NCBI RefSeq assembly: GCF_009208775.1
Contig: NZ_WFLM01000001.1
Coordinates: forward strand, 186,001-250,000
Source of the DNA: Silvanigrella paludirubra
Lineage (GTDB): Bacteria; Bdellovibrionota_B; Oligoflexia; Silvanigrellales; Silvanigrellaceae
Direction of reading: 5' to 3'
DNA: 64,000 nucleotides
Numbering within the stretch: the stretch's first letter is position 1; each line of letters begins with the position of its first letter. The translations under genes were made by a program, and so were the position numbers. Positions 50,266 to 53,664 of this stretch are shown in pieces. Under the pieces are notes generated by a model. That model was not told where the DNA came from. It searched no databases and worked only from the letters and a program-made list of their open reading frames with translations.

Positions 50266-50451
50266 TTATAAAAGTTCTTTTTTTAAAAATAAAATGACTT
50301 CATTTAATTTATTCAAAATTGCAGGATCATTTATATCTTCTATATTTGTTGCAATAGAAATTTCGGTTTTTAGATTTTCAAGAAATCGCAGTGCTGCAAG
50401 AATATCATGCTGTTTTTTTGGGTCTTCAATTAAATTTTTTTTAGTTTTCAT
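50266..50451 (-). CDS. Small helical protein encoded after the LpxL-like gene
   Basis: A 61-residue protein with a basic start (MKTKKNLIEDPKKQHD) and amphipathic helices ending FLKKEL. The ATG is one base after the LpxL-like stop codon and GGGGGT lies in that stop region, so translation is coupled. It is probably real because of position. No family is known. Confidence 0.6.
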   Translation of the reverse strand: MKTKKNLIEDPKKQHDILAALRFLENLKTEISIATNIEDINDPAILNKLNEVILFLKKELL

Positions 50452-51390: not shown

Positions 51391-52230
51391 CTATACATCT
51401 TCTACGAGAGGGTGTTCTTCAAAGTGGGTCTCTACTTCCATTTTTGTGAAGAATTTTTCATTACAAACAGTACATCTATATTGTGCATTGTCTCTTGCGA
51501 ATGGTTTTTGATTTGGTCTTCGATACAAAACTGGTTTTTCAATTTCTTGAGGTTTTTGTTTGATATCACTTTCATGATCCATTGGATCACCAGAAGTGCC
51601 AGGCTCCTCTTCTGGAGTTTCATCTACAGCAGGGGCTTGTGCTTGTACAACATCTTGTTCTGACGAAGTTGCATCATCAGTTGAGGTGTCTTCAACAGGA
51701 GGTAATTTGGGAGTTGGTTCTGGAGATGATTTTGGTGAAGATTTTGGAGCTTTAAAAGTAGCTACTTTTTTTGGAACGGAAGATCCTATAATTCCTGGTC
51801 TTGTTACAAGTGAATCTCTTTTTGTTTTTTCCGCTCTTTCCGCTAAGGATGCAAAAAGATTATGAAGGTGATCTCCAAGCACTTTGGGGTAACGCGCTGC
51901 TTGAAGGTCTCTTAAAATACAAAGTGCGGTATCAGGCTCATTAGAATATGTTTTGCCACAAAGTAAACAAAAATAAGTTTGGGTATTACTTTGAGTAGCA
52001 ATAACAGGAATTGAATTAATATTTAATCCATTACTAGTAAGACATTTCCAAGCATCATCTGGGTTATTATATCTTTTCCCGCATAAACCACAAACGTAAC
52101 AACCTGGTCCCTTAAATACTCGACATAGTCTTTGCATAGGCGATAAACTTGTCGAAGGAGCCTTCAAAAAAGATTGTATGTTACGAGGTATTCCCATATT
52201 TTCTTTCAATGAAACTAGAAGGTTTCCCAT
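51391..52230 (-). CDS. Protein with a canonical C2H2 zinc finger and two Cys-x2-Cys repeats
   Basis: A 279-residue protein (ATG 52230; ATG 52197 is an alternative, and neither has a strong ribosome site). Two similar repeats come first: CGLCGKRYNNPDDAWKCL and CLLCGKTYSNEPDTALCIL, each with Cys-x2-Cys plus a third Cys. A Pro/Ser/Glu-rich disordered linker (about 150-230) follows. The C-terminus is YRCTVCNEKFFTKMEVETH plus FEEH, which matches C-x2-C-x12-H-x3-H with the F-x5-hydrophobic spacing of classical C2H2 fingers. It probably binds nucleic acid or another protein. The family is unknown to me. Confidence 0.82.
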   Translation of the reverse strand: MGNLLVSLKENMGIPRNIQSFLKAPSTSLSPMQRLCRVFKGPGCYVCGLCGKRYNNPDDAWKCLTSNGLNINSIPVIATQSNTQTYFCLLCGKTYSNEPDTALCILRDLQAARYPKVLGDHLHNLFASLAERAEKTKRDSLVTRPGIIGSSVPKKVATFKAPKSSPKSSPEPTPKLPPVEDTSTDDATSSEQDVVQAQAPAVDETPEEEPGTSGDPMDHESDIKQKPQEIEKPVLYRRPNQKPFARDNAQYRCTVCNEKFFTKMEVETHFEEHPLVEDV

Positions 52231-52350
52231 TGCAAACCATAACAAATAAGTTTATCGGTAAAATTGCATGAAAAGTAAATATTGCCATAAATCAGGAAGT
52301 CCGCTAGGAATAAGCAGAGCCGTTAAGGTACTTTAGGAAGGAAATGTATC

Positions 52351-52632
52351 ATGCCAATACTGACTGTAAAAACCGATAAAAGAAATATAACTGTTGAAAA
52401 AGGTTCATCTATAATTGATGTTTGTGAGACTGAAGAAACAAGCATTTTATTTGGATGCCGCGATGGGGCATGTGGTGCATGCATGATACGAGTTGTCGAG
52501 CATCCAGAAAATTTAAGTCCTATGGAAGAACATGAAAAAGATTTTCTTGAAACCATGGCAGCTAGAGAAGATGAACGTCTTGCTTGTCAATGCAAAGTTT
52601 TAGGTGATGTAACAATAGAAGTCTCAGAATAA
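52351..52632 (+). CDS. Plant-type 2Fe-2S ferredoxin
   Basis: A 93-residue ferredoxin with cluster ligands in GCRDGACGACMIRVVE (Cys 36, 41, 44; C-x4-C-x2-C) and the fourth in ERLACQCKV (Cys 79). It is a small electron carrier. AGGAAGG lies a few bases before the ATG. It is upstream of dapF by 39 bases and may be transcribed with it. The electron partners are unknown. Confidence 0.93.
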   Translation: MPILTVKTDKRNITVEKGSSIIDVCETEETSILFGCRDGACGACMIRVVEHPENLSPMEEHEKDFLETMAAREDERLACQCKVLGDVTIEVSE

Positions 52633-52671: not shown

Positions 52672-53664
52672 ATGCATTCAGATTTTAATATAGAATTTGA
52701 AAAATTTCATGGAGCCTCAAACGATTTTATTTTTATTTCAGATTCCTATTTAAAATTTTTTTCGAATCAAAATGAATTGAAAAAATTTGCTGAAAAAATT
52801 TGCGATCGAAATCAAGGAATTGGTGCTGATGGAGTTGTTTTTTATCAATATCCTTTAGATCAAAATACCACTCTCGTAAATATTTTAATTATAAATTCAG
52901 ATGGAAGTTTTGCTGGTACCTGCGGGAATGCTTTGCGCTGTTTAGGTCTAAAACTCATTCAAGATAAAAAATGGGATGGTTTAAATTCATTTCCTATTTT
53001 TAGATTATTACCTGCATTTTTTACAAATCAATTAGAAACAATTTTGTCTGAAGAAGAGTTTATATTACAAAAAAATTCTTTTGCTGTTTTGACAAAAGCA
53101 AATGTTCATAATTTAAATGATGCTAATGTAAGTGTTGCTATGGGTAAAGAAATTGAAATATTTCAAACACCCATCCAAGATCATTCATTGGCAAATTTCG
53201 GAAATTTTGAAAATATAACTCCTATATTTGTTTCGTTATCAAATCCTCATTGGGTATTTATTTCATCAGAATTTCTAAAGTTTAATAAAAAAATGTATGA
53301 AGAATTTGGTCATTATGCTCAGAATGATCTTAGACAAAAAGCATTAAAAAATAAAATTCCTCTTGCCAATATTGGAATGCTTTCATTTCATGAAAAAAAT
53401 GTAAGTCATTGGAATCTTGTTGTATATGAACGAGGTGCTGGGCTTACAGCCTGTTGTGGTTCAGGAGGAGTTGCGGCCCGAATTGCATTGGAGCATTCAC
53501 TTAATATTTCAACTCAATTGAATGAAGTTTTTTTTAAAATGCCTGGTGGCATTATTTCTATTTCTAAAATCATTACAATAGAAAATTATGGTGAACAAAG
53601 AATATTATCAGGTCCATCTAAAAAAGTATTTAGTGGAAATATTCCTCATTATTTATTTCAATAA
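52672..53664 (+). CDS. dapF: Diaminopimelate epimerase
   Basis: A 330-residue enzyme, longer than the usual 270-280. It converts LL- to meso-diaminopimelate for lysine and peptidoglycan. The two catalytic cysteines are in GTCGNALRC (about 84) and TACCGSGGVAAR (about 260). The start EFEKFHGASNDFIFI and NQGIGADGVVFY are typical. The extra length lies between the two halves (about 100-175). It overlaps the end of the convergent gene by 35 bases. Confidence 0.94.
   Translation: MHSDFNIEFEKFHGASNDFIFISDSYLKFFSNQNELKKFAEKICDRNQGIGADGVVFYQYPLDQNTTLVNILIINSDGSFAGTCGNALRCLGLKLIQDKKWDGLNSFPIFRLLPAFFTNQLETILSEEEFILQKNSFAVLTKANVHNLNDANVSVAMGKEIEIFQTPIQDHSLANFGNFENITPIFVSLSNPHWVFISSEFLKFNKKMYEEFGHYAQNDLRQKALKNKIPLANIGMLSFHEKNVSHWNLVVYERGAGLTACCGSGGVAARIALEHSLNISTQLNEVFFKMPGGIISISKIITIENYGEQRILSGPSKKVFSGNIPHYLFQ

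Follow-up and report, generated by a model that had tools for sequence, protein, structure and literature searches.

Zinc-finger proteins of the Oligoflexia and the classical-looking C2H2 finger of Silvanigrella

Ros/MucR is a bacterial finger of the C2H2 type with a shorter spacer than the eukaryotic finger, of which it has been proposed to be the ancestor; its Ros fold is given as beta-beta-beta-alpha-alpha (both statements from an excerpt of PMC9779718).

A different bacterial finger had been described in the first-pass annotation of a 64-kb (64,000-nucleotide) stretch of Silvanigrella paludirubra DNA, hereafter the window: a multi-finger protein with a classical C2H2 finger at its C terminus. 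The multi-finger protein is real, and its C2H2 state is confined to the orthologues of one genus. Here we describe the anatomy, conservation, ligand pattern, spread and neighbourhood of the family to which it belongs, which is both real and unnamed. At roughly one chance in two, we read it as a class-wide family with ancestral Cys4 and Cys3-His fingers, in which the window's genus acquired His at the third ligand place of one finger, and whose members would serve as tethered nucleic-acid-binding regulators or adaptors.

The gene and its three fingers

The open reading frame lies on the minus strand, ends at 51391, and reaches back to a TTG at 52245 through in-frame ATGs at 52197 and 52230. The ATG at 52197 is the likelier start, since in L002 and L003 an in-frame TAG stands just 5' of the matching Met, and the gene most likely has the extent given in Table 1. 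The layout first proposed for the protein stands: its two N-terminal Cys-x2-Cys units are related repeats, ending in C-x3-N and C-x3-D; the linker between the fingers, with a pI of 4.5 (residues 131-222 of the 268-aa form), is predicted to be disordered; and finger 3 has the ligands, spacing and hydrophobic positions of a classical C2H2 finger.

Table 1. Features of the window around the zinc-finger gene (residue numbers of the fingers, helix and linker refer to the 279-aa form counted from ATG 52230)
Feature	Position	Strand	Remarks
61-aa ORF	50266..50451		adjoins lipid A acyltransferase gene; kept in six genus loci; no Pfam match
Zinc-finger protein gene	51391..52197	(-)	most likely extent, 268 aa; ORF open onward to ATG 52230 and TTG 52245
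Finger 3 core, C-x2-C-x12-H-x3-H	51412..51474	(-)	residues 253-273
Finger 3 with extra N-terminal strand	51412..51507	(-)	residues 242-273
Linker, predicted disordered	51541..51810	(-)	residues 141-230; Pro/Ser/Glu/Asp-rich; AlphaFold2 pLDDT blocks 44-55; highest pN/pS
Predicted helix after finger 2	51814..51885	(-)	residues 116-139; AlphaFold2
Finger 2, C-x2-C-x12-C-x3-D	51907..51969	(-)	residues 88-108; Asp here in 7/7 genus orthologues
Finger 1, C-x2-C-x12-C-x3-N	52030..52092	(-)	residues 47-67; Cys4 in most out-of-genus relatives
Conserved non-coding block with CCGATA	52252..52279	(-)	between finger gene and ferredoxin gene
2Fe-2S ferredoxin gene	52351..52632	(+)	PF00111; divergent neighbour
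dapF-type gene (diaminopimelate epimerase)	52672..53664	(+)	PF01678; beside ferredoxin gene

The strict C2H2 pattern occurs once among all six-frame open reading frames of at least 60 aa in the window. None of 60 windows generated by a first-order Markov model contains it, and 1 of 20,000 shuffles of the protein's residues does. The whole protein passes the Pfam model PF00096 (25.9 bits, curated cut-off 25.2), while finger 3 alone scores 17 bits in a genome scan, under the cut-off; because of this, and because 11 of 14 control genomes also match at E up to 1 (one of them over the cut-off), the Pfam hit is weak by itself. Of 28 family members, just 5 match this model at all when E up to 0.1 is allowed. 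Judged from sequence comparison, finger 3 is real, a claim that rests on conservation and not on pLDDT; AlphaFold 3, according to an excerpt of PMC12383448, assigns zinc sites confidently to short, random Cys/His sequences. Six relatives from the same genus are 46-72% identical to the window protein. In comparisons with four relatives (L002, L004, L006 and L007), for which pS (0.60-0.87) is close to saturation, pN/pS is 0.48-0.87 in the linker, 0.23-0.49 in fingers 1 and 2 with the following helix, and 0.09-0.33 in finger 3, which is under the strongest purifying selection.

AlphaFold2 gives the finger blocks pLDDT values of 87-97. Modelled alone (mean pLDDT 90.9; strands 11-14 and 17-20, helix 30-38), finger 3 is predicted to fold as a beta-beta-alpha unit with one strand beyond the minimal finger. 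The best 20 Foldseek rows for it comprise 17 classical zinc fingers (Kaiso, SALL4, ZBTB20, BCL11A, SUPERMAN and others), the other three being ARS2 and a U2 snRNP chain, in a search that is weak for so small a domain (no E below 0.6). VIA rows that span the extra strand are largely fingers of ARS2, the archaeal ribosome, U2 snRNP and TUT1 (35-42 residues, rmsd 1.7-2.8 A, Z 3.1-3.7); as an unrelated JAK1 chain also reaches Z 3.0, these RNA-associated matches are a hint at most. Structure searches with the whole model (best Foldseek E 0.24; unrelated chains reaching Z 4.3) are uninformative for fingers 1 and 2. A sequence search of solved structures with the finger profile reached E 2e-8 with PRDM9 arrays by summing short repeats, none of which passes alone, and its whole-finger matches, for example to SALL4, have E values of 0.13 or worse.

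Spread of the family and its ligand sets

Own genome included, a single-sequence search matched 31 of 56 genomes, a profile of the C-terminal finger (A3, containing no row of the genus's C2H2 type) matched 33 of 58 genomes of the phylum, Bdellovibrionota (order Silvanigrellales for the window's own family), and a second profile, built on the N-terminal double finger (A8), matched 35; by A3 or A8 the family is present in 38. The 20 genomes that neither profile matches include all of groups f2, f3, f8, f11 and f12, and seven of the eight in f5. Against the window protein, A8 gives E 1.2e-23 (the window protein being one of its 26 rows) and A3 gives E 1.7e-13 over the C-terminal finger with its preceding [FY]xR....Y.C strand. 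These profile searches covered this phylum and part of one other. A contig scan with one exact pattern, which does not fit the window's own finger, so that a blank is no evidence of absence, gave 26 stretches and 19 relatives. Of the relatives, 17 are Oligoflexia by genus or group name (Pseudobacteriovorax among them) or by hits shared with Oligoflexia genomes; the other two are from Candidatus Magnetocorallium, filed by NCBI under Nitrospirota.

Candidatus Magnetocorallium paracelense has a six-finger member (L047, 3667-4848) and a one-finger member (L052, 5998-6162). The finger profile matches 3 of 148 sampled genomes of that phylum, one strongly and two at E ~5e-4, and the Magnetocorallium members may represent a cross-phylum transfer. 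Contamination was considered as well: a neighbour gene is slightly nearer to the organism's own phylum (35%, 253 bits) than to Oligoflexia (31%, 224 bits), which leans against contamination, without deciding it, for the 327-kb contig with the single-finger ORF, which is what the check covers, and not for the 5.4-kb contig with the multi-finger gene.

Members have from one to six fingers: single-finger members are open frames of ~45-70 codons, and six pattern matches each are found in L018, L024, L025 and L047. The window's own genome has a 65-codon frame with one Cys3-His finger (L077; G000 contig 2, 655539-655637), and single-finger ORFs resembling it are found in other genomes of the class. 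One frame of 182 codons (L020; G016 contig 3, 1480-2028) has the N-terminal double finger without the C-terminal finger; together with a single-finger ORF elsewhere in the same genome (L038), it may be a split member. In genus g4 (L011, L012 and L022), the double finger and the C-terminal finger are separated by a very long linker, in frames of ~580-630 codons.

We read the ligands of 120 pattern-matching fingers in 39 proteins, which are frames extracted from retrieved loci: CCCC in 47, CCCH in 45, CCCD in 8, CCCN in 7, CCHH in 7, CCCP in 3, and CCCG, CCCE and CCHD in one each. The pattern used, C..C.{12}[CH], is blind to other spacers and other third ligands, and the count stands apart from matches in, for example, G021, G028, G053, G056 and G057, from the fingers of G049 and L034/G020 (frames broken by stops), and from L041-L046, L048-L051 and L053-L059, several of which are the same genomes. 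L010 and L021 are duplicates, as are L022 and L019, and one of each pair was counted; L004 is nearly identical to L005, and L017 to L033. A Cys one residue later, giving C-x4-C, is found in two of the three CCCP fingers (L028, L032) and in the final finger of L024.

In the rest of the Oligoflexia, most N-terminal fingers read C-x2-C-x12-C-x3-C, and the C-terminal finger reads C-x2-C-x12-C-x3-H. The seven CCHH fingers all come from the window's genus (G000 and G002-G007), where each is the C-terminal finger; G001, a genome of the same genus that is 72% complete, has no match. Among 37 aligned C-terminal-type fingers, ligand 3 is His in six, all of them genus orthologues, and Cys in 31, including three single-finger paralogues from the window's own genus; the seventh orthologue, L005, also has His at this place in the 39-protein reading. 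Calling the finger classical C2H2, as the first-pass annotation did, is therefore right for the genus orthologues and wrong beyond them. The annotation had also named homologues without the Cys/His ligands as grounds for refutation. This does not apply to finger 3, since the wider homologues keep four ligands, with Cys in place of His; in fingers 1 and 2 the fourth Cys that is usual elsewhere has been lost in the window's own genus, and three of the four ligands are kept. Finger 1 has Asn (in six) or Gly (in one) at the fourth ligand place in this genus, leaving it without a fourth Cys, His or Asp ligand at the usual place, and it is preceded by two extra cysteines that are present in 7/7 proteins of the genus and 0/22 other A8 rows.

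Since His at ligand 3 is limited to the seven genus orthologues, with Cys in the other 31, finger 3 appears to be derived locally from a bacterial Cys3-His finger and not to be a borrowed eukaryotic domain, and a Cys-to-His change within this genus is the simplest reading. In a tree of 25 rows, the four C2H2 rows form one clade (99/98), nested in a ten-row set (100/99) whose remaining members are five other rows of Silvanigrellaceae and the one from Magnetocorallium; the tree has long branches (L047, L008 and L009), the clade of the window protein and L008 are long branches that meet, and the bootstrap is unsettled.

Gene neighbourhood and proposed function

Within the Silvanigrellaceae, the finger gene stands head-to-head with the ferredoxin gene, with dapF adjoining, at 11 of 12 loci (in L064 the finger gene, which the finger pattern search passed over, was taken from a separate reading of the locus); at the exception, L069 of G009, the contig extends 2.8 kb upstream and shows no ferredoxin there. 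Among five three-finger loci of f4, f6 and f10 with wide flanks, four (L071, L072, L073 and L076) lie within ~7 kb of a PF02482 gene, of the hibernation-factor type, and of RecD2, and three of these four also adjoin tatC and polA; the fifth, L051, has neither a PF02482-type gene nor RecD2 within 6 kb (Pfam calls were run on the window's genes, L072 and L042). At L071 the finger gene begins 2 bases after an ABC-F type gene. A conserved protein with no Pfam match is encoded between tatC and the finger gene at L072 (5713-6444) and L071 (8909-9706). In f7, the finger gene follows topA in L075 and is convergent with it, at ~1 kb, in L074. At 5 of 7 Oligoflexia loci (L041-L044 and L049; not L045 and L046), a prolyl-oligopeptidase gene comes after the multi-finger form, which in some other loci has Nfu/NifU-type and Suf-like genes nearby. 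Across the class no partner stays constant, and so the neighbourhood gives no function; the settings are chromosomal and of housekeeping character, which supports vertical descent. We propose that the family, whose member in the window belongs to the Silvanigrellaceae, has been mostly vertically inherited in the Oligoflexia.

The CCGATA block upstream of the finger gene is kept on the minus strand in six of six aligned genomes of the genus. In Bdellovibrio, the attack-phase FliA consensus TTAAG-N16-CCGATA was found at 92 of 140 promoters (PMC3627812, from an excerpt). The block is possibly a sigma-28-type promoter of the finger gene, to be taken as a lead only; by our own scoring, 4.3 equally good promoter matches are expected by chance in 64 kb. 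In the 200 bases upstream of seven distinct flagellin-type genes, CCGATA is found at one and CGATA at two (L096 and L097 have no frame). The nine flagellin-type matches of the own genome are distributed over contigs C3, C5, C7 and C8.

In our main reading, each finger would be a zinc-stabilised beta-beta-alpha unit with an extra strand N-terminal to it. The ancestral ligands would have been Cys4 in both N-terminal fingers and Cys3-His in the C-terminal finger, ligand 3 of which became His in the window's genus and gave the finger its classical C2H2 look. The N-terminal double finger and finger 3 would dock on separate RNA, DNA or nucleoprotein sites by a conserved basic patch on the extra strand, the hairpin and the start of the helix, and the disordered linker, of ~90 residues, would tether the two finger ends; unlike closely linked tandem fingers, such a protein would read no contiguous DNA word. 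We infer that this putative regulator or adaptor binds both zinc and nucleic acid, and we give about even odds that its fingers, held apart on a flexible tether, bind nucleic acid separately.

The patch is seen in the 37 aligned C-terminal-type fingers: column 13, before the finger, is Arg in all 37, and Lys or Arg is found at column 17 in 29 (Gln in finger 3 of the window protein), at column 26 in 30 and at column 30 in 36. Nucleic-acid binding is favoured by this patch, by the RNA-associated structure rows, and by the RNA- and DNA-handling neighbours found in some lineages (the PF02482 ribosome-hibernation type, RecD2, PolA, TopA and the ABC-F type). It is weakened by the lack of tandem linkers, by the acidic residue at helix column 32 in 34 of the 37 fingers, and by the near-neutral charge of the finger-3 segment (7 Lys/Arg, 8 Asp/Glu, pI 6.1).

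The same acidic helix residues and near-neutral charge would suit a protein-protein adaptor, whose fingers bind partners and whose disordered linker bridges two of them, in the way that FOG-type mixed Cys/His fingers bind partner proteins. This is the main rival, if a rather doubtful one: the long and variable spacing between fingers and the long, acidic linker agree with it, but the invariant Arg and the conserved Lys/Arg around the finger do not, nor does the neighbourhood, in which an adaptor's partner gene might be constant across the class and is not. A metal or redox sensor, in which Cys-rich sites answer zinc or oxidation and switch the activity of the protein, seems improbable. The mostly Cys ligands of the family, the 2Fe-2S ferredoxin beside the gene in the Silvanigrellaceae, and the Nfu/NifU-type and Suf-like genes near the multi-finger form all point towards it; these Fe-S neighbours, however, differ from lineage to lineage, and a thiol switch would hardly tolerate the genus's Cys-to-His swap at ligand 3 or the varying fourth ligands. 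Gain of the C-terminal finger from a eukaryote or a eukaryotic virus by horizontal transfer, for which the classical ligand and spacing pattern and the whole-protein PF00096 score could be cited, was set aside as hardly credible, as ligand 3 is Cys in 31 of 37 fingers, the C2H2 clade lies inside Cys3-His rows, the nearest relatives among the bacterial, phage, plasmid and viral sequences searched are Cys3-His fingers of bacteria, accompanied by the same N-terminal fingers, relatives in the Silvanigrellaceae keep the same neighbour genes, 50,697 phage and 72,556 plasmid records hold no match to the multi-finger member L018, and 12 pattern matches in viral contigs include no relative.

As to descent within the class, we lean slightly towards the view that the Oligoflexia have their own endogenous lineage of beta-beta-alpha fingers, with 1 to 6 fingers per protein, and that one genus turned a Cys3-His finger into a classical C2H2 finger. 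If true, this would be a natural record of a eukaryote-like C2H2 finger arising in bacteria without eukaryotic transfer, and a second class-wide bacterial family, with 12-residue spacing, repeat expansion, and a ligand series from Cys4 through Cys3-His to Cys2-His2. Such a series would offer a natural test of the evolution of ligand identity, fold and nucleic-acid binding, and the family would point to unannotated proteins in a little-studied bacterial class.

Comparison with described zinc fingers

The domain models that match the family are generic zinc-finger models only, and each matches few members. Among Pfam models, zf-C2H2_4 is matched most often, with hits in 8 of the 28 members when E up to 0.1 is allowed. 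Among nine members scanned, those over a Pfam cut-off are L014 and L024 (PF25017, via summed weak stretches), L025 (zf-BED), and L047 (PF00096 and DUF7830). For DUF7830 (PF25169), L047 is the only one of the nine to pass at E up to 0.01 (30.2 against 27.5), and across the phylum the model matches 1 of 56 genomes, where the hit lies in a frame of 613 aa on a different contig. Among NCBIfam models, none is matched by more than 3 of the 28 members at E up to 0.1, and the four NCBIfam matches of the window protein are all far below their cut-offs. A known defence protein and a known phage protein were considered and rejected: the window protein and L018 have no PADLOC match, and PHROGs gives none for the window protein and one weak match for L018 (E 0.005, residues 437-496). 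Nor is the family described in the literature on bacterial and prokaryotic zinc fingers, including those of Oligoflexia, among the matches listed. The earlier statement that no named family has this layout thus agrees with Pfam, NCBIfam, PADLOC, PHROGs and the literature, among the matches listed.

The fingers of ARS2, U2 snRNP (SF3A-type proteins), TUT1 and the archaeal ribosome are alike in matching the finger together with its extra strand; they differ in that no sequence kinship to them was found, and Z is too low for a relation. Eukaryotic C2H2 fingers (PF00096; Kaiso, SALL4) share the pattern C-x2-C-x12-H-x3-H and its hydrophobic positions, and the predicted core of finger 3 aligns with that of Kaiso at about 0.5 A across 23 columns. 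They stand in tandem arrays, whereas the fingers here are single and separated, with an extra strand and long linkers, and in relatives of the window protein ligand 3 is Cys, as ligand 4 often is too.

The family is also distinct from the Ros/MucR form C-x2-C-x9-H, as had been claimed: all three fingers of the window protein have a spacer of 12, and the length of the spacer, 9 in Ros/MucR according to the excerpt of PMC9779718, rules out membership. No Ros structure or Ros Pfam model is among the matches listed, which by itself excludes nothing. Ros/MucR, for which AT-rich DNA binding and oligomerisation are further traits, belongs to another class, the alpha-proteobacteria; it has one finger, according to the same excerpt, and a larger domain. 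What it shares with the Oligoflexia proteins is a bacterial finger with a strand added in front, and ligand sets that vary in both.
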